Both the position numbers and the translations under genes were made by a program. From SAR202 cluster bacterium bin87 (GTDB lineage Bacteria > Chloroflexota > Dehalococcoidia > Lucifugimonadales > UBA3495), in the NCBI GenBank assembly GCA_002238825.1, contig MPNC01000002.1, positions 1-51,179 on the forward strand: a stretch of 51,179 nt of DNA, in the 5' to 3' direction. Position 1 is the stretch's first letter, and the number at the start of each line of letters is the position of its first letter. Positions 31,058 through 39,921 of this stretch are shown here, in pieces. A model generated the notes under the pieces. It did not search any database. It was given only the letters and a program-made list of their open reading frames with translations, and was not told the DNA's origin.

Positions 31058-32623
31058 ATGACGATACAAAACAACCCACCGGCCGGCCGCGTGATAATGG
31101 TCCAAGGCACGGCGTCCCACGTCGGCAAGAGCGTGCTGGTGTCGGCGCTGTGCCGAATATTCCGCCAGGATGGGCTGCGGGTTGCGCCGTTCAAGGCGCA
31201 GAACATGTCCAACAACTCGTACGTCACGCCGGACGGCGGTGAAATCGGTCGCGCCCAGGCCGTCCAGGCCGAGGCCGCCGGTGTCGAAGCTCGGGTGGAA
31301 ATGAACCCCGTTCTGCTCAAGCCTGAGGCAGACAGCCACGCCCAGGTGGTGCTGATGGGCCGACCTCTCACTTCCGCACGGGCTCGCGACTATTTCGACC
31401 TGAAGGCAACACTCTGGGAATCGGTATCGAGTTCGCTGGACGCGCTGCGCAGCCAGCACGACGTCGTGGTTATCGAAGGGGCGGGCAGCCCGGCGGAGAT
31501 CAACCTGAAAGCCACCGAGATCGTCAACATGCGGGTGGCGCTATACGCCAACGCACCGGTGCTCCTTTGCGGCGACATCGACCGGGGCGGCGTGTTCGCA
31601 TCGCTGGTGGGAACCTTGCAACTGCTGGATGATGCTGAGCGGGACCAAGTCAAGGGACTGTTGATCAACAAGTTCCGCGGCGACGCATCGCTACTGACCG
31701 ACGGCCTGACGTGGCTGGAGGACTACACCAGCAAGCCGGTGGTGGGCGTGGTCCACCACTATCGGGACATACACATCCCCGAAGAGGATTCGGTGGCGCT
31801 GGACTTCACCCCGCCGCACGCATCCTCTCCCGACGTGCTGGACGTCGCGGTGGTCCAGGTTCCCCACATCTCGAACTTCGACGACTTTGACCCGCTGGCA
31901 AGGGAGCCCGGCGTCTCGCTGCGGTACGTGCAGAGCGGTGACCGGCTCGGCAAGCCGGACCTCGTCATCTTGCCCGGCAGCAAGACCACCATCCCCGATC
32001 TGATGTGGATGGAACGACAGGGATTGTCCCAAGCCGTGTTGGACGCCACGGAAAGCGGTTCCTCGATCATGGGCATCTGCGGCGGTTACCAGATGCTGGG
32101 CAAGACCCTGCTGGACCCGGACCGCATCGAGTCTAACATCGGAGCAGCGGACGGACTGGGCCTGCTCCCCCTGGTGACGACGTTCGCCGGAACCAAGGAG
32201 ACTCACCGGGTTGAGGCCACGGTGCGACAGGAGGCATCCACGCGCGGGCACCTGATGTCCGGAGCCGACGGGGAAACCGTAATTGGCTACGAGATCCACA
32301 TGGGCCGGACCTCGGGCGAAGGCATCATCCCCGCGTTCAACCTGGTGGACCGGGCCGATGCGGCGATCACGCCGGAAACGGCCTTCGATGGAGCGCTGGC
32401 CGCCAACGGCAGGGTGATGGGAACGTACATCCACGGGCTGTTCCACAACGCCGGTGTCCGACGGGCGATCCTGCGCGAGTTGGCCCGCCGCAAGGGGGTT
32501 GGGTTGCCCGAAGGCGTGGACGTGGCACGCGACCGGGAGTATGACCGGCTCGCCGACTGGGTGCGCGACAGCCTGCGCATGGACCTGGTCTATGACATGG
32601 CAGGTCTCACGCCGGCGCTATGA
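31058..32623 (+). CDS. cobQ: cobyric acid synthase (glutamine-hydrolysing)
   Basis: 521 aa. N-terminal dethiobiotin-synthetase-like ATPase domain: VQGTASHVGKSVLVSALCRI and FKAQNMSNNSYVT. C-terminal glutamine amidotransferase domain with nucleophile Cys341 (GICGGYQMLG) and catalytic His459 (TYIHGLFHN). It amidates four side-chain carboxylates of adenosylcobyrinic acid a,c-diamide in cobalamin synthesis. ATG at 31058 gives the family N-terminus; a GTG at 31007 would add 17 residues. Its stop overlaps the cobU start (ATGA). Confidence 0.95.
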   Translation: MTIQNNPPAGRVIMVQGTASHVGKSVLVSALCRIFRQDGLRVAPFKAQNMSNNSYVTPDGGEIGRAQAVQAEAAGVEARVEMNPVLLKPEADSHAQVVLMGRPLTSARARDYFDLKATLWESVSSSLDALRSQHDVVVIEGAGSPAEINLKATEIVNMRVALYANAPVLLCGDIDRGGVFASLVGTLQLLDDAERDQVKGLLINKFRGDASLLTDGLTWLEDYTSKPVVGVVHHYRDIHIPEEDSVALDFTPPHASSPDVLDVAVVQVPHISNFDDFDPLAREPGVSLRYVQSGDRLGKPDLVILPGSKTTIPDLMWMERQGLSQAVLDATESGSSIMGICGGYQMLGKTLLDPDRIESNIGAADGLGLLPLVTTFAGTKETHRVEATVRQEASTRGHLMSGADGETVIGYEIHMGRTSGEGIIPAFNLVDRADAAITPETAFDGALAANGRVMGTYIHGLFHNAGVRRAILRELARRKGVGLPEGVDVARDREYDRLADWVRDSLRMDLVYDMAGLTPAL

Positions 32624-33192
32624 GCTCGATACACCTCGTATTGGGCGGCATACGGTCGGGGAAAAGCGCTTACGCGGAACGGTTGGCGGCCGCAATCGCC
32701 GGATGCCAGCCCGTCCTGTACATTGCGACCGGCATCGCCATCGACACGGAAATGGAAGAGCGCATCCAAAGGCACCAACAGAGGAGACCGCCGAATTGGC
32801 AAACTCTTGAAGCCTCGCTCAATCCGGTGGGTGCGCTGCAAGATCGGGTCGGAACCATCGACCCAGCTCCCGTGGTGTTGCTCGACTCCATGGACGTTTG
32901 GGTATCCAATCTGATGCTGGAACACGAAGGCACGCCGAGGCTGGAACTGGACTCCCGCATCGTCGGCGCGGCGCGGCGCTTCGCGGACTACATCAGTGAG
33001 ACGGATCGCCAGGCGGTGGTCGTGAGCAGCGAGGTTGGCTATTCGTTGGTTGCCACGACCTCGATGGGCCGCCAGTTCCAGGATCTGCTGGGGACGGTGA
33101 ACCAGGCGATGGCAGAGGCGGCGGATCAGGTCACGATGGTGGTCGCCGGCTTGCCGGTTCCAATCAAGCCTGCGGCAACCGGCGCCTACTAG
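32620..33192 (+). CDS. cobU: adenosylcobinamide kinase / adenosylcobinamide-phosphate guanylyltransferase
   Basis: 190 aa. P-loop GGIRSGKS (9-16), then IATGIAIDTEMEERIQRHQ, a WQTLEA motif and VVVSSEVGYSLVATTSMGR, all typical of CobU/CobP. It phosphorylates adenosylcobinamide and transfers GMP, activating it for addition of the lower ligand. It overlaps cobQ by 4 nt and precedes the PduX-like kinase, so the three form one operon. Confidence 0.95.
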   Translation: MSSIHLVLGGIRSGKSAYAERLAAAIAGCQPVLYIATGIAIDTEMEERIQRHQQRRPPNWQTLEASLNPVGALQDRVGTIDPAPVVLLDSMDVWVSNLMLEHEGTPRLELDSRIVGAARRFADYISETDRQAVVVSSEVGYSLVATTSMGRQFQDLLGTVNQAMAEAADQVTMVVAGLPVPIKPAATGAY

Positions 33193-33225: not shown

Positions 33226-34131
33226 ATGGCTGACGAGATTCTGGGCACAGCTTCGGTTCTGGCCCCGGGGACCTGCGGCGAACTGGTGCAGGGAATGACC
33301 GGAGGTGTGGACTTCCTGGTGACCTGCCCCATCAACCAGTTCTCGAGAGCCACAGTGACGGTGTCCCGAGGTGATGGTCCCGGCGATCAGGTGCGAGGCA
33401 TCGACCATCTGCCCAAAACCCGGCAGGCGGTAACGGCTGCGCTGGCACGATTGGCGCGCTGCCTCGGCGTGCCTGGGTTGCTTGCCGACGTCACGGTGGC
33501 CAATCCCATCCCGGTGGGCAAAGGCATGGGCAGCAGCAGCGCGGACATCACGGCCGCGGTGTGCGCGACGGGCCGGGCCGCGGGCAGCGAGTTGCCTCCA
33601 GAAACCATCGCAGAGATCGCCCTGTCGGTGGAGCCGACGGACGGCGTGATGTTTCCCGGTATCGCCCTGCTCGATCATCGACGAGGCAAAATCGTAGATC
33701 TGCTGGGCGCTCCCCCGCCGATGGAGGTGATTGTCATCGACCGTGGCGGTCAGGTGGACACGCTGGAATTCAACCGGATCGATCGCGAAGAGCACTGGCG
33801 GTCGGTGGCTTCCGCCACTGGCGAGGCCCTGGAATTGGTGCGGGAAGGCATCCGCCGCTGCGATCCGGAGCTGGTCGGCCGGGGCGCTACGATCAGCGCG
33901 CGTGCCGGGCGGCCCGATGACGCGGGCCCCTGGGTGGAACATGCATCAGATTTCGCGGCTGAGATCGGCGCGGCCGGCGTGAACGTGGCCCACAGCGGCA
34001 CGGTGATTGGCATCCTGCTGGACGCGCGGAAACGGCAGAGCAAGCCGGCATTCCGCGAGGCGCAGCGGGAGTTTGCGGGGGCGGAGAGTGTGCAGCACTT
34101 CCGGATTATCGGCGGGGGCGTGCGGTTCTAA
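33226..34131 (+). CDS. GHMP kinase, probable L-threonine kinase (PduX-like)
   Basis: 301 aa GHMP-family kinase. The N-terminal LAPGTCGELVQG (12-23) closely matches PduX, the L-threonine kinase of cobalamin synthesis, and the ATP loop PVGKGMGSSSADITAA is the GHMP motif 2. Its place directly after cobQ and cobU supports production of L-threonine-3-phosphate, precursor of the aminopropanol linker of cobalamin. No cobD-type decarboxylase or cobS/cobT gene is in the window. Its last 26 nt overlap the convergent glycosylase gene. Confidence 0.85.
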   Translation: MADEILGTASVLAPGTCGELVQGMTGGVDFLVTCPINQFSRATVTVSRGDGPGDQVRGIDHLPKTRQAVTAALARLARCLGVPGLLADVTVANPIPVGKGMGSSSADITAAVCATGRAAGSELPPETIAEIALSVEPTDGVMFPGIALLDHRRGKIVDLLGAPPPMEVIVIDRGGQVDTLEFNRIDREEHWRSVASATGEALELVREGIRRCDPELVGRGATISARAGRPDDAGPWVEHASDFAAEIGAAGVNVAHSGTVIGILLDARKRQSKPAFREAQREFAGAESVQHFRIIGGGVRF

Positions 34132-35251
34132 TCGCTCTCCTCGCCGGCGAACGGCGATCACTATGGCCTTGGAGCAGGTAGTACCCTCCCGGGGTTTTGC
34201 AATGGCTACCCGGTGACGCCCCGCAAAATGGACACGGACGCGCCCGGTGGTCTGCAAAAATGCCGCTTCTGCTCTTTGCGGTATCTTGGACCTTCGTCCG
34301 CGATGTACTGGACACGGTTCGATTTCCAGCCTGTGCCCGGTCACAAAATATGAACTGGCCGACATAGCCGGCATTAGGCCCGAAATAGTTTTGCGCCCAT
34401 TGCAAGATTCTAGAGTCAGAGGGAGGCTTTTCCCAGCCGAACCACCGATCGTTCACCAGCCTCCTGATGTGAGTGTCCACTGGAAACGCTTCCAGTTTAT
34501 CGAGCGACATCAAGGCAACACAGTTCGCAATTTTCGCACCGATTCCGTTGGGAACTTTACTACCGTACCTTCTTCCTTGCATCAAACCCTGTATGACGAC
34601 TGGATAACCCCATGGCTTCATCCCGTCAAAATCCAGCTGGCCATCATGAACCCGCTGTGCAGCGCCGAGTATTGCAGATGGGAAGTCACGGGTAAATCTG
34701 CCCGCGAACTCCAGCTCAATCAATCCCTCAAGCTTGACTTCCAATATCCGTTGTGGTGGTGGGAATGGGCGTCGCTCGTCGTGGCCCAGATTCATCGTTT
34801 GACGGCTCAGCGCGGCAATCTCAGACACACACTGCCTGATATTGGGGATTTTGTTACTTCGTGAGCAGATATACGACGCCAGGCACTCCCAAGGTTCTTG
34901 CCTCAGGACGCGCATTCCGGAGTACTTTCGCACTAATCCAGCAATATGGATGTCCCGGTTGCTAATGTCAGCGTAGATGGCGGCCGCGTCATCATCGTCC
35001 CGAAAATACCTACGCAGCAACACGTCATCGCCGTCGGTGGCCTTCCTCTCTCCATCCGGCCCGCCCACCCGATACGCTACCCCAGTTCCGGTCCGCCGAA
35101 TGTGGATGAGGTTATTGCCCAGCACGCCCGAAAACCACCGATGGCCATCTGAGTAGAACCCTTCGGGCAATAGCTTCCACCGAAACGCCTGGCCCATCGT
35201 AAGCGACAGTTGCAGGTCAAAGGGCTGCTGGATTTCTATCTCTCTGACCAT
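34106..35251 (-). CDS. OGG1-like 8-oxoguanine DNA glycosylase with C-terminal zinc-finger-like tail
   Basis: 381 aa. Residues about 1-305 are an OGG1-type glycosylase: N-terminal domain (SLTMGQAFRW, FSGVLGNNLIHIR), LRQEPWECLASYICS, and a helix-hairpin-helix-GPD segment VPNGIGAKIANCVALMSLDK with catalytic Lys240 and Asp259 in FPVDTHI. A tail of about 75 residues follows, with CPFCGASPGSHCKTPGGYY and His363, a likely zinc site (Cys340, Cys343, Cys351, His363). It would excise 8-oxoG and nick by beta-elimination. Base composition is visibly more AT-rich than neighbours, hinting at transfer. A paralogue without the tail lies 12 nt upstream. Confidence 0.85.
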   Translation of the reverse strand: MVREIEIQQPFDLQLSLTMGQAFRWKLLPEGFYSDGHRWFSGVLGNNLIHIRRTGTGVAYRVGGPDGERKATDGDDVLLRRYFRDDDDAAAIYADISNRDIHIAGLVRKYSGMRVLRQEPWECLASYICSRSNKIPNIRQCVSEIAALSRQTMNLGHDERRPFPPPQRILEVKLEGLIELEFAGRFTRDFPSAILGAAQRVHDGQLDFDGMKPWGYPVVIQGLMQGRRYGSKVPNGIGAKIANCVALMSLDKLEAFPVDTHIRRLVNDRWFGWEKPPSDSRILQWAQNYFGPNAGYVGQFIFCDRAQAGNRTVSSTSRTKVQDTAKSRSGIFADHRARPCPFCGASPGSHCKTPGGYYLLQGHSDRRSPARRAIRTARPRR

Positions 35252-35263
35252 GTGAACACTCCG

Positions 35264-36124
35264 TCAACGACCCTCACGCCGCCGCGCGTGAAAGAGGTAC
35301 TGCTGGGAGTAGCCGGCGTATTGGCCGAAGTGGTTCTGGGCCCATTCCACCATCACTCGGTCGGGCGGCTTTTTCTGCATGGGGAAATACCACTCCGCCA
35401 GCGCGCGACGCACCCACACGTCCACCGGAAATGCCTGGAGCTTTTCCAATGAGAACACGGCGATGCAGTCGGCGATCTTGGCCCCGATCCCGTAGCACTC
35501 CATGAGCCTGGACTTGGTCTCCGGATAGGGCAGGCGGATCAATTCGTCCAGGTCCAGTTCGCCATCGCATACGCGCCGAGCCGCAGCGACGACGTATGGC
35601 GCGCGGAACCCCAGGCCCAATTCTCGCAGGAACCCTTCGCCGGCAGAGGCGATTTGTTCGGCGGAGGCGAAGGTGTGCCGGACCTCTCCGTCCAATTCCA
35701 GTGGATCGCCGAGGCTGTCCGCCATGGCCTCCATGTTCTGGTGAATGCGGGGTATGTTCGACGTGGCCGAGCAAATAAACGCGACCGTGCACTCCCATGG
35801 TTCCTGCCGCAAAATGCGCAGGCCCGGATAGCGGGACACCATTTCCGAAACCCGACGGTCCCGGCAAATGTCCGCGTAAATCGCGCCGATATCGTCGTCG
35901 AGGCGGAAATATGACCGCAACAGGCGGTTCAGCGTCTCTGGTTCTGGGGCATCGCCGGCGCCCGCGACGCGATACTCCACCCCTTCGCATCGCTGCCGGA
36001 CGTGGATGAGCCATGGGCCCAGTACGCCCGAATACCAACCATCCCCCAGGTTGTTCCAGCGATGGGCTTGCCCGCTTTCCAGGCTCTCCGCCAGGTTGAA
36101 CGGTTGGTCTATGGCTAGCTGCAC
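35264..36124 (-). CDS. OGG1-like 8-oxoguanine DNA glycosylase
   Basis: 286 aa, colinear with the glycosylase gene that follows: LAESLESGQAHRW, YSGVLGPWLIHVR, LRQEPWECTVAFICS, then the helix-hairpin-helix YGIGAKIADCIAVFSLEK with catalytic Lys216 and Asp235 (FPVDVWV). No zinc tail. Codon use is GC-rich like the rest of the window. It removes oxidised guanine from DNA. The pair may have arisen by duplication or by arrival of a second copy; divergence is considerable, so it is not recent. Confidence 0.9.
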   Translation of the reverse strand: MQLAIDQPFNLAESLESGQAHRWNNLGDGWYSGVLGPWLIHVRQRCEGVEYRVAGAGDAPEPETLNRLLRSYFRLDDDIGAIYADICRDRRVSEMVSRYPGLRILRQEPWECTVAFICSATSNIPRIHQNMEAMADSLGDPLELDGEVRHTFASAEQIASAGEGFLRELGLGFRAPYVVAAARRVCDGELDLDELIRLPYPETKSRLMECYGIGAKIADCIAVFSLEKLQAFPVDVWVRRALAEWYFPMQKKPPDRVMVEWAQNHFGQYAGYSQQYLFHARRREGR

Positions 36125-36172
36125 GGTGCGTTCCGGTATTGCCGACCCCTCGTCCGCGCTCGTCCCGAAAGC

Positions 36173-39016
36173 TCAGCCGGCCACCGGACGATCGAGTTGC
36201 AGCCAGCGGGCCGCCTGGTCGCCGACGCTGCTGACGCTGGACCGCTCGACGGTACACGGTGGCAACGCGTTCAGGAAGCGGTCGCCGTAGTTAGCGGTCT
36301 GGATACGGCGGTCCAGGATGACCACGGCTCCTCGGTCCACCTTGTTCCGGATCAGCCGGCCGAATCCCTGGCGAAAACGCAGCACTGCCGAAGGCACCTG
36401 GTATTCGTTGAACGGGTTGTTGAACAGGTTCCCCCGGGCTTTGACGATGGGATCCGTGGGTACGGGGAAAGGGAGGCGACACAGCAGCAGTCCGCGCAGA
36501 ATGCCCGACTCCATGTCCACGCCTTCCCAGAAACTGGCGGTGCCGAGGAGAACCGCGCGCGGGTCGGCGTGGATCCGGTCCACGAGTTGTCGAGGTGTGC
36601 CGTCAATTCCCTGAGCCAGGACGTTGATCCCCGACGCGCGCAGGGGTCCCCGTACCTGGAACGATGCTTCCCGCAAGGCGCTGTGCGAGGTGAACAGCGC
36701 CATCAGATGGCCGTCCAGGGCCTGCGCCATGTTCAGGATCACCTGGGCAGTGCCTCGGGCGTGGTCGGCGCCGCGACGCGGATCCGGCAGGTCGTCCGGA
36801 ACCAGGAGCAGGGTGTTGCGCCGATAGTTGAACGGACTGTCAACCAGCAACTCGTCGCAATCGTCGGGGAACCCCAGGCGCTCACGCAGGAACCCGAAGT
36901 TGCTGTCCGTCGCAAGGGTCGCGCTCGTCAACACCACCGTTTCTTTCTGCTGGAACAGCATCTCGGACAGGATGGGACCGACGGACAGTGGGGTAGAGTG
37001 CAGCATGATGTTGCGTCGCACCATGTCGATCCACTGGATTTGCTCATCATCGAACCGTCCGAAGACCGAAGCCAGGCGTTCGTTGAACTCGGACATCGTG
37101 TCGACGGCGCTCAGCAGCTCGTTACCCTGGCTGTCGTCGGAAAGATCGAATATCCCCTGGTCGACCAGCCTCCACACATCGTTCAGCCGATTGACGCTGT
37201 CGGCCATGAACGTCGCGAAGGACTCCCACTCGCGGGCGGCGGAGCCCCATTCCGCGGTCTGGCGGACAGCAATCTCGAAAGACACCGGCTGACGATCGTT
37301 GTCCCCCCGGGTGTGGGATTGATAGAGGTTCGTGATCGCAGCCCACAGCTGTTGCCACGCCTGCAGGGCCTGGTTACAACTGGCCGTCGCGTTGGTGAGA
37401 GCATCCCGGGCGCGACCGAGGTTCTCGTCGTGGGGCGACTGGTTGGCAATACCGGTCAGGTGCCGGAACAGCCGGTAGACGCCGTCCAACTCCTGCGGGA
37501 GGTCATCCTCGGCGATTTCAAAACCCAATTGCCGGCTCGCCTCCTCCTCCAGGTGGTGGGCTTCGTCGACGATGAGGTGCTGGTAATCCTGCAACACGGT
37601 GCCGCCCACGGCCAGATCGGCCAGCAGCAGGGCGTGGTTCACCACCAGGATGTTCGCCGCTTCAGCACGCTGCCGGGCCTGACGCAGGAAACAGGGAGCC
37701 CCGCCGCGGAATGACTGGCACACGCCCTGGTTGTCGGCGCACACCCGCAACCAGGCGCGGTGGTCTCCGAAGTTCAGGTTGAGGTCGGTGCGGTCGCCGT
37801 TTTCGGTGTCATCCAGCCAGACAGCGGTTTTGCCGAGCACCCGAGCCTCGTCCTCGGTCAAGGTGTCCGACGCGCCGAGGCTGGTCCACCGGCGCAGGCA
37901 CACGTAGTTGGAGCGACCCTTTAGCTGGGCCGCGCGAACCGCTCCCGGTTCGAGGATGCCGGCTTCTTCCAGGATTGAGATTACTGCAGGTATGTCCTTG
38001 TCCATCAGCTGTTCCTGCAGGCTGATGGTGTTGGTGGATATCACCACCCGGTGCCCATGGGTGGCGGAGTAAAGCACCGCCGGAAGCAGATAGGCGATGC
38101 TTTTGCCGATACCGGTTCCGCCTTCCACGATGAGCTTCCTGCCCTGGTAGATGGCGCGGGTGACGGCCTTGAGCATCTCGGCCTGTTGGGGCCGGTTTTC
38201 AAACCCGGGAAAAGCGCTGGCAAATACGCCCTCGGGCGCCAGAAGATCCTCGAGCTGCTGTTCGGTGAGTTCGCGCCTTACCGCGTTGCCGGTCTGTTCA
38301 TCGGTATCGCTGGCCAGCCGCCTGGCCAGGCTATCGAGGTTCAGACCATTGAGTCCGACGGCCCCGGCAGTCCCGGGCGCCGCGTTAGCTCCCGGGGCAT
38401 GAGGCACGAGCGCTTCGAGCAGGTCCGCAACCGAGCCGTTGGCGGCTCGGGCAGCGCGGGCGATGAACGCAACCTTCGCCGCCGGGTAAGAAGCGCCCAG
38501 TTTCAGCAACTGGTGGAACACCAGCGCGGTGGTTTCCGCGTCGGCCACGGCGCGGTGGGCCTGGTTGTGCTCGAGGTCCAAATGCCTGGCGAGGGCGCTC
38601 AGGTTGTATTCCGACAGGCTGGGCAGGAATATCGACGCCAGGTCCCAGGTGTTGTAGCTGCGGTTGGTCAGGTGGAGACCATGGGATGACAGGAACGCGA
38701 TATCGAAAGCGATGTTGTGCCCGACGATGGGCAAATCGCCAACGAACGCGGCGAACTGGGCCGCAACCTGCTGGAACCGCGGCGCCCGTTCGATTTGGGC
38801 GGGGCTAATGGAGGTCAGTTGCTGGACGAATGTGGGGATCTGACGGCCCGGATTGACAAAGGTCTGGTAACGCTCTGAAACCTCTCCACCCCGAAACTTG
38901 ACGGCTCCAATCTCGATTATGGCATCGGATTGCGCTTGCAGCCCGGTGGTTTCCAGATCGACACAAACGAATTCGCGCTCGAATATGTCGCTCTGCGGCA
39001 ACAGCGTCGGGGTCAT
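36173..39016 (-). CDS. dinG: DnaQ-like exonuclease / DinG-family helicase fusion
   Basis: 947 aa. Residues 1-170 form a DEDDh 3'-5' exonuclease: Asp20 and Glu22 (VDLETTG), Asp105 (AFDIAF), His154 and Asp159. From about 265 the XPD/DinG superfamily 2 helicase: Walker A EGGTGIGKS (298-306), cysteines 373, 426, 433 and 442 placed like an iron-sulfur cluster, and DEAH 484-487. C-terminal motifs GTASFWEGVDMESG and FRQGFGRLIRN. In Firmicutes a related fusion lacks the cluster cysteines; here they are present, so 5'-3' helicase activity is plausible. Role in repair of damaged or structured DNA. Next to two base-excision glycosylases. Confidence 0.93.
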   Translation of the reverse strand: MTPTLLPQSDIFEREFVCVDLETTGLQAQSDAIIEIGAVKFRGGEVSERYQTFVNPGRQIPTFVQQLTSISPAQIERAPRFQQVAAQFAAFVGDLPIVGHNIAFDIAFLSSHGLHLTNRSYNTWDLASIFLPSLSEYNLSALARHLDLEHNQAHRAVADAETTALVFHQLLKLGASYPAAKVAFIARAARAANGSVADLLEALVPHAPGANAAPGTAGAVGLNGLNLDSLARRLASDTDEQTGNAVRRELTEQQLEDLLAPEGVFASAFPGFENRPQQAEMLKAVTRAIYQGRKLIVEGGTGIGKSIAYLLPAVLYSATHGHRVVISTNTISLQEQLMDKDIPAVISILEEAGILEPGAVRAAQLKGRSNYVCLRRWTSLGASDTLTEDEARVLGKTAVWLDDTENGDRTDLNLNFGDHRAWLRVCADNQGVCQSFRGGAPCFLRQARQRAEAANILVVNHALLLADLAVGGTVLQDYQHLIVDEAHHLEEEASRQLGFEIAEDDLPQELDGVYRLFRHLTGIANQSPHDENLGRARDALTNATASCNQALQAWQQLWAAITNLYQSHTRGDNDRQPVSFEIAVRQTAEWGSAAREWESFATFMADSVNRLNDVWRLVDQGIFDLSDDSQGNELLSAVDTMSEFNERLASVFGRFDDEQIQWIDMVRRNIMLHSTPLSVGPILSEMLFQQKETVVLTSATLATDSNFGFLRERLGFPDDCDELLVDSPFNYRRNTLLLVPDDLPDPRRGADHARGTAQVILNMAQALDGHLMALFTSHSALREASFQVRGPLRASGINVLAQGIDGTPRQLVDRIHADPRAVLLGTASFWEGVDMESGILRGLLLCRLPFPVPTDPIVKARGNLFNNPFNEYQVPSAVLRFRQGFGRLIRNKVDRGAVVILDRRIQTANYGDRFLNALPPCTVERSSVSSVGDQAARWLQLDRPVAG

Positions 39017-39048
39017 CGAAATGAACTGCAGTCGAGGACGAGTCGTAC

Positions 39049-39753
39049 CTACGCTGAGCGCAGGCGGTACGGCCGCAACGATCCCTGCCGTAGCCCTTCC
39101 AGTGGGCGGAAGTCCCCCCGATGCAGAGCGGTGAGGAACTGGGCCTCGTCTAATACTTCGTCGGGGAACTCGGTGACGAATTTACCCAGCCCGTGGGTGC
39201 TGTGAGCGTCGCTGCCCCCGGTCACCGGCAAGTTCAGCCGGTGGGCCACCTCGGCGGCGAAACGGTTTTCCTCGTCCGACGTGCCGCCGTTGGCAATTTC
39301 GATGGCGTCGACCAGTTTGAATACCGCATGCTCCATAGCCGTCTCCGCATCCTGCGGGATAGGTTCGTTGGGATCCGGATAGAGGTACGGACGTGTCCGG
39401 TGATGCTGCCCGAGGACGCCACGGAACGGGTGCGCCGACACCACGAATCCGCCGACAGCGTGGGCCGCCCGACTCAGTTCGTCGGCGCGGTGAAATCCGC
39501 TCTGGTACCGGTCCACGCCAAAAGCCAGGATGTGACCCATATCGGTGTCGGCTTCCATGGCGCGGATCAGCACCACGTTATGTTTGGCAGCGAAGGCGGC
39601 GAATTCGTGCCGGTCCCATGGCCCGGAGTGTTCCGTAATGCACAGTCCGCGCAATCCCAAACGTTCTGCCTCAAGGATGAGATCTTCGGGCGAAAGGCTG
39701 GAATCGGCGCTACCTTTGGTCGTATGGATGTGTAAATCAAAAATGCGTGACAT
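39049..39753 (-). CDS. PHP-domain metal-dependent phosphoesterase
   Basis: 234 aa from the ATG at 39753, which begins MSRIFDLHIHTTKGSADSSL; the open frame extends upstream to 39837 without homology-like sequence and into a repeat. PHP metal ligands are visible: HIH, Asp17, ITEHSG, EADTD, SAHPFRG and the terminal GGSDAH. Phosphoesterase of unknown substrate, related to histidinol phosphatase and to the PHP domain of DNA polymerases. It lies 32 nt before dinG in the same direction and may be co-transcribed with the repair genes. Confidence 0.88.
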   Translation of the reverse strand: MSRIFDLHIHTTKGSADSSLSPEDLILEAERLGLRGLCITEHSGPWDRHEFAAFAAKHNVVLIRAMEADTDMGHILAFGVDRYQSGFHRADELSRAAHAVGGFVVSAHPFRGVLGQHHRTRPYLYPDPNEPIPQDAETAMEHAVFKLVDAIEIANGGTSDEENRFAAEVAHRLNLPVTGGSDAHSTHGLGKFVTEFPDEVLDEAQFLTALHRGDFRPLEGLRQGSLRPYRLRSA

Positions 39754-39834
39754 AAGCTCTACCAGTCTATGCGTAGCCCGAAACGGCGTCAACGCCGACT
39801 CGGCCTCACGCGTACCCGTTTTCGGCTCAGTTGT

Positions 39835-39921
39835 CATTGCGAGCGCAGCGTGGCAATCTCGTCGAGGCCGGAGCCGTCGCTACGCCAACGAGATTGCCGC
39901 ATCGCTTTGCTCCTCGCAATG
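39835..39921. repeat. CATTGCGAG-type palindromic repeat
   Basis: Left arm CATTGCGAGCGCAGCG...GGCAATCTCGT (39835-39862), right arm ACGAGATTGCC...GCTCCTCGCAATG (39888-39921). The arms are inverted copies, the left one about 6 nt shorter. This belongs to a class of dispersed palindromes common in many bacterial genomes. It lies in the divergent region between the PHP gene and the following dehydrogenase gene. Confidence 0.75.

Follow-up and report, generated by a model that had tools for sequence, protein, structure and literature searches.

The 51,179-nt stretch of contig MPNC01000002.1 analysed here (the window) carries two OGG1-type genes in tandem, and the downstream one, p1, encodes an OGG1-fold glycosylase paralogue with a zinc-knuckle-like tail and, by its sequence, a predicted glycosylase activity. 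We consider it rather probable that p1 is an active enzyme with a relaxed or shifted choice of opposite base or lesion, a nucleic-acid-binding tail and a history of diversification by recombination. The fold, the residues, their conservation, the homology of the tail and the exchange of segments are documented below.

The OGG1 gene pair and the p1 slot

The genes of the locus are:
32620-33192: CobU cobinamide kinase, the next gene beyond the GHMP kinase
33226..34131, plus strand: GHMP kinase, convergent with p1 and conserved neighbour of the p1 slot (PF00288, E 4.8e-12; synteny)
34106..35251, minus strand: p1, OGG1-fold glycosylase paralogue with a C-terminal zinc-knuckle-like tail (381 aa; ATG start; Pfam OGG_N, E 1.2e-17)
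35264..36124, minus strand: p2, canonical bacterial OGG1 (286 aa; GTG start; Pfam OGG_N, E 9.4e-20; HhH-GPD above cut-off)
36173..39016, minus strand: DnaQ-type exonuclease/DinG-type helicase (dinG), conserved neighbour of p2 (profile matches and synteny)

The tandem arrangement of the original prediction, two OGG1 genes in the same direction, was recovered from the open reading frames, the Pfam OGG_N matches and the matches to OGG1 structures. Both genes lie on the minus strand with a gap of 12 nt (35252-35263). A GGAG element was read from the sequence ahead of the p1 ATG, thus a single transcript probably serves the translation of both p1 and p2. At its stop, p1 runs 26 nt (34106-34131) into the 3' end of the GHMP kinase gene. 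This overlap had been described correctly, but its partner had been taken for a cobalamin kinase; Pfam assigns it to the GHMP superfamily, and CobU follows one gene further. The overlap measures 59 nt in the genomes G012, G010 and G013 (L033:8992-9050, L034:8073-8131, L035:2297-2355), and part of the sequence for the Arg-rich end of p1 there lies antisense to the 3' end of the GHMP kinase.

Comparisons were made with 14 genomes of this Dehalococcoidia genus, within 250 genomes of the order. p2 was present in 14 of the 14, next to dinG on all contigs that extend to this neighbour, and p2-dinG-PHP is a stable repair neighbourhood. Up to two divergent OGG1 paralogues occupy a slot by the GHMP-kinase/cobU/cobQ cluster: two in G003 and G006, none in G002, and one in further genomes. 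Where the slot and p2-dinG are on separate contigs (G007, G001, G009, G011, G004, G005), the slot genes stay by the GHMP kinase. The proposed repair island is borne out only in part: p2 and dinG form a conserved pair, but p1 remains on the GHMP-kinase/cob side where the loci lie apart. The gene order p2-dinG-PHP (window 35264-39837) recurs outside the genus but within the family (G025, G038; L057, L058), and in G025 a second divergent OGG1 without a zinc tail overlaps the end of p2 (L057:4594-5601). An OGG1 remnant was sought in the slot of G002 and none was found; 1.15 kb separate p2 from the GHMP kinase there (L053:5575-6727). The third OGG1 copy of G003 (L043:5802-6824) has an open reading frame, with Glu at the Lys249 position and Arg at Cys253, so it probably lacks glycosylase activity. 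A search for a source of p1 in phage, plasmid and viral-contig collections yielded only distant OGG1 relatives with at most ~34% identity.

Fold, base-reading residues and tail of p1

The p1 gene is divided as follows:
34880..35227, minus strand: A-domain (OGG_N), residues 9-124, an allele divergent from that of G012 (synonymous divergence 0.74)
34583..34861, minus strand: exchanged middle block (residues 131-223), which covers the positions of 149, 154, 203 and 204 in human OGG1
34319..34582, minus strand: HhH and catalytic segment (residues 224-311), containing K240 (34532-34534), D259 (34475-34477) and, in place of Gln315, G298
34247..34318, minus strand: linker, residues 312-335, probably flexible (pLDDT < 50)
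34154..34246, minus strand: zinc-knuckle-like domain, residues 336-366, with C340, C343, C351 and H363 (PF24623 match)
34106..34153, minus strand: Arg-rich C-terminal extension and stop, the last 26 nt antisense to the GHMP kinase end

The OGG_N profile scored 64.6 bits on p1 and 71.4 bits on p2 (Pfam cut-off 23). HhH-GPD stayed below the cut-off in p1 (14.6 vs 26.2) and exceeded it in p2. Both proteins match OGG1 structures, the best noted for p2 being PDB 4ejy (E 1.8e-46). The AF2 model of p1 (mean pLDDT 85.7, 33 sequences in the alignment) has the HhH-GPD core fold, with a Z of 34.2 and an rmsd of 2.1 over 289 residues of human OGG1. Lys249, Asp268 and Cys253 of the catalytic site correspond to K240, D259 and C244 in p1 and are kept in p2. 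The prediction of catalytic Lys and Asp in both genes agrees with the K240 and D259 columns, which like that of C244 are invariant in the 33-sequence alignment including p2. Gly42 and Phe319 of the 8-oxoG pocket are present as G20 and F302. The NCBIfam model TIGR00588 scored 96.1 on p1 and 197.8 on p2, both below its cut-off of 397.85; as the canonical-looking p2 also fails, the model seems to be set for close relatives only.

In human OGG1, Asn149, Arg154, Tyr203 and Arg204 hold and read the orphan cytosine opposite 8-oxoG, and Gln315 hydrogen-bonds 8-oxoG (PMC3397491; its text prints Asn104 in places, its figure legend Asn149). CacOGG1, in which Met replaces Arg154 and Phe replaces Tyr203, cleaves 8-oxoG whichever base lies opposite (PMC3397491). 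The human-type residue set for opposite C (Asn149, Arg154, Tyr203, Arg204) is absent from p1: residues 132, 133, 134 and 137, aligned with Asn149, Asn150, Asn151 and Arg154, are S, N, K and N, and a five-residue insert at the Tyr203-Arg204 position gives FAGRFTRDFPSAI vs GFRAPYV in p2. The Gln315 position is G298 in p1, Gly in all tailed copies and Q in p2. p2 has T, R, F and R at 149, 154, 203 and 204, with R154, F203-R204 and Q315 uniform in all six p2 of the genus that were checked. An alignment of bacterial and archaeal OGG1 showed Gln315 in 24 of 33 sequences and Arg154 in 12 of 33. As neither residue is universal, Gly298 does not exclude p1 from the OGG1 family, and the changes in p1 at these positions may be neutral. 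These differences at the opposite-cytosine contacts and at Gln315 lend support, at the sequence level, to the suggestion that the two enzymes may split substrates. A reading of the 5- and 8-residue inserts of p1 as frameshift scars was dropped, since relatives share them in frame: both occur in G012 and G013, the first and most of the second in G007.

The predicted CPFC...C...H tail of the downstream gene was found as C340-x2-C343-x7-C351-x11-H363. A profile search revealed a homologue, PF24623 (Phage_zn_bind_8), which Pfam describes as a putative DNA-binding phage zinc finger; the score of 25.7 bits (E 9.8e-6) exceeds the gathering cut-off of 24 by only 1.7 bits. Nine of the 14 genus genomes encode a CxxC...C...H tail, and eight of the nine tailed copies have the full ligand set; in G007 the first Cys is a Tyr. 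Two types were distinguished: type A (CPFCGAxxGxHCKTPGG and an Arg-rich end) in the window, G012, G010, G013 and G001, and type B (CGxxxGxxCRxPSGYxYxxGHxxRGPR, no Arg-rich end) in G007, G008, G003 and G009. The tail types are spread over the species tree, with a minimum of four changes for three states. Searching the relatives with the PF24623 profile yielded 21-23 bits for G003, G009 and G001, under the cut-off, and no reported match for G010 and G007; tails below the cut-off were recognised via whole-protein alignment. Among the matches listed for the 250 genomes of the order, tail-covering matches without stop codons were confined to this genus. The nonsynonymous/synonymous ratio of the knuckle, ~0.2, indicates that the tail is under purifying selection. 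AlphaFold modelling of p1 without metal gave intermediate confidence for the knuckle and low confidence for the linker (312-335), and the tail predicted alone without metal had low confidence. The tail is predicted to bind zinc and nucleic acid.

Elsewhere in the genus, small proteins with two PF24623-type knuckles each are encoded in frames of 206 and 167 aa (L065, L068 in G005:C37; L072, L073 in G001:C83). Another conserved tail is present on knuckle-less slot paralogues at L043:5802-6824 and L046:6135-7244 (PFGTRWRGKxRITPPGGRQLDDxYLDELRYxYLxAKYL) and, shorter, at L048:8123-9109.

Mosaicism and allele turnover

Comparison of the window with G012, G010 and G003 gave ~82-94% identity for p2, dinG and the GHMP kinase, and 77, 65 and 50% for p1. 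The flanks of the slot are ~80-97% identical among close species despite the allele turnover. Synonymous sites were chosen for the segment comparison, being little affected by protein constraint. The synonymous divergence of p1 from sister species jumps by segment, from 0.19 to 0.80. Between the window and G012 it was 0.74 in the A domain vs 0.28 in the middle (Fisher p 1.4e-8); between the window and G010 the A domain had 0.80, the middle 0.62 and the tail 0.19 (tail vs A domain, Fisher p 8.5e-13); between G012 and G010 the middle had 0.72 vs 0.22-0.40 elsewhere in p1. The control genes were even along their length: quarters of p2, GHMP kinase and dinG ranged from 0.32 to 0.60, with no p < 0.01. 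The middle block (~131-223) of G010 groups with the distant genus member G001 (support 100/100), and forcing the middle blocks of the window, G012, G013 and G010 into one clade was rejected (log-likelihood 71.7 worse, AU p 5e-63). The C segment, unlike the middle block, places G010 near the window and G012. A wider clade test of the middle block with seven rows (p 0.086) and two C-segment tests (0.085-0.088) were non-significant, so it is the synonymous test and the four-row tree test that carry the case for a mosaic. A site-permutation mosaic test was set aside; it fires on control genes as well, because constraint varies along any protein.

Read from these segment comparisons, p1 is a mosaic produced by recombination. 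It sits at a slot with allele turnover, where recombination and the replacement of alleles have created diversity within the genus. The exchanged block 131-223 holds the known opposite-base residues; outside it, the catalytic Lys, Asp and Cys are fixed. A segment exchange over the opposite-base reader goes beyond the original prediction. An open-access literature search found neither OGG1 shuffling nor an OGG1 with a zinc finger in Chloroflexi.

The base composition of p1 differs as well. Its GC is 0.557 and its GC3 0.61, compared to 0.626 and 0.77 for p2 and a GC3 of 0.79 for dinG and 0.77 for the GHMP kinase, which bears out the earlier remark that the downstream gene is more AT-rich than its neighbours. 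The AT-richness extends to the p1 orthologues of every species (GC3 0.52-0.65 vs ~0.78 for p2) and thus marks the slot in the long term, rather than a recent arrival in this genome. Other slot paralogues have an intermediate GC.

Alternative explanations and known systems

In the explanation given at the outset, p2 would be the housekeeping OGG1 of the genus and p1 a second OGG1-fold base-excision glycosylase that would flip the damaged base into its pocket and, judging by fold and residues, cut with K240/D259 by the standard OGG1 mechanism. With a rebuilt opposite-base reader and Gly for Gln315, it would probably tolerate other opposite bases, single-stranded contexts or purine lesions besides 8-oxoG:C. 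The flexible linker would carry the CxxC-C-H knuckle and the Arg-rich end, which probably add nucleic-acid binding. Because the slot has been diversified, the p1 variants differ between species while p2 stays the same. Activity, altered base or lesion choice, the tail's binding of zinc and nucleic acid and the reason for the exchange are what we infer here. Counting against the explanation are the HhH-GPD score of p1, the non-universal Gln315 and Arg154, the faster evolution of p1 than of p2, the low-confidence tail model, the non-significant topology tests, the Cys loss in G007 and the lack of p1 in G002.

The same losses would suit a redundant or weakly constrained duplicate doing the job of p2, with a divergence due mostly to relaxed selection and a slot that keeps, then loses duplicates. 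The dN/dS of p1 against G012 and G013 is ~0.18, that of p2 0.08-0.09 and that of the GHMP kinase 0.16-0.17 (dinG against G012, 0.05); relaxed constraint could also cause the faster evolution of p1. The G002 genome without p1, the G003 slot copy without catalytic Lys and Cys (L043:5802-6824) and the G007 tail minus a Cys fit as well. We hold this origin to be rather unlikely: tailed reading frames are intact across nine species, sister species included, their catalytic residues are invariant, their tail is under purifying selection, and simple decay would not predict segment exchange at synonymous sites. The intact frames and the purifying selection also dispose of the second gene as a decayed copy in relatives; p1 probably represents a sister enzyme whose targets have changed.

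Very unlikely is an antiviral or anti-mobile-element glycosylase that would excise modified bases, its exchanged block being a target-recognition region in an arms race and its function Brig-like. Such a role would be consistent with the allele turnover at a fixed slot between flanks conserved among close species, the block swapping, the lasting AT-richness and the naming of PF24623 after phage proteins, and immunity by glycosylases has a precedent in the phage-defence enzymes Brig1/2/3 (PMC13160076). However, these belong to the uracil-glycosylase superfamily and not to the HhH fold (PMC13160076), a PADLOC defence-library scan of p1 and p2 was negative, the neighbours are cobalamin and repair genes, and the catalytic pocket looks OGG1-like. 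Still less credence is due to an RNA- or protein-directed role, in which the knuckle and the Arg-rich end would guide p1 to RNA, ribosomes or a partner, with the glycosylase domain serving mainly as a damage sensor. The Cys-Cys-Cys-His knuckle and Arg-rich end of the type-A copies would agree with it, but all tailed copies keep the catalytic residues and the type-B tails lack the Arg-rich end.

For a glycosylase with altered targets and a recombining gene, as we favour, the unchanged p2 and the shuffled p1 form a natural mutant series with fixed catalytic residues and variable opposite-base readers. Thus natural alleles allow a direct test of what determines the opposite-base choice of OGG1. 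OGG1 is generally regarded as a conserved single-copy housekeeping gene, and the question arises whether enzymes of this kind could work on lesions or in contexts beyond those assayed so far. The swapping of an opposite-base block and a nucleic-acid-binding tail between alleles at a fixed slot may even characterise p1 as a specificity-cassette repair enzyme, possibly directed against foreign modified DNA. We regard this as unlikely; if true, the genus would have a changing repertoire of base-excision specificities.

With the OGG1 family (human OGG1; CacOGG1, MBOgg1; PDB 3i0w, 4ejy), p1 shares the A-domain and HhH fold, the catalytic Lys and Asp, and the equivalents of G42, C253 and F319. It differs in the replacement of N149 and R154, the insert at Tyr203-Arg204, the Gly at Gln315, an 8-residue insert ahead of the HhH and the zinc-knuckle tail. 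PF24623 has the CxxC-C-H knuckle in common with the p1 tail, but in p1 the knuckle is fused to an OGG1 glycosylase. Brig1/2/3 would be alike as DNA glycosylases turned toward unusual bases only if p1 were antiviral; their fold is that of uracil-DNA glycosylases, whereas p1 adopts the OGG1 type of HhH fold. Rapid turnover of alleles at one fixed slot together with an exchanged recognition block is the pattern of restriction-specificity or antiviral genes. In HsdS, the specificity subunits of type I restriction systems, recognition blocks are exchanged inside a conserved frame, as in p1; unlike HsdS, p1 is a base-excision glycosylase without a methylase or nuclease partner, and its exchanged part would read the opposite base.
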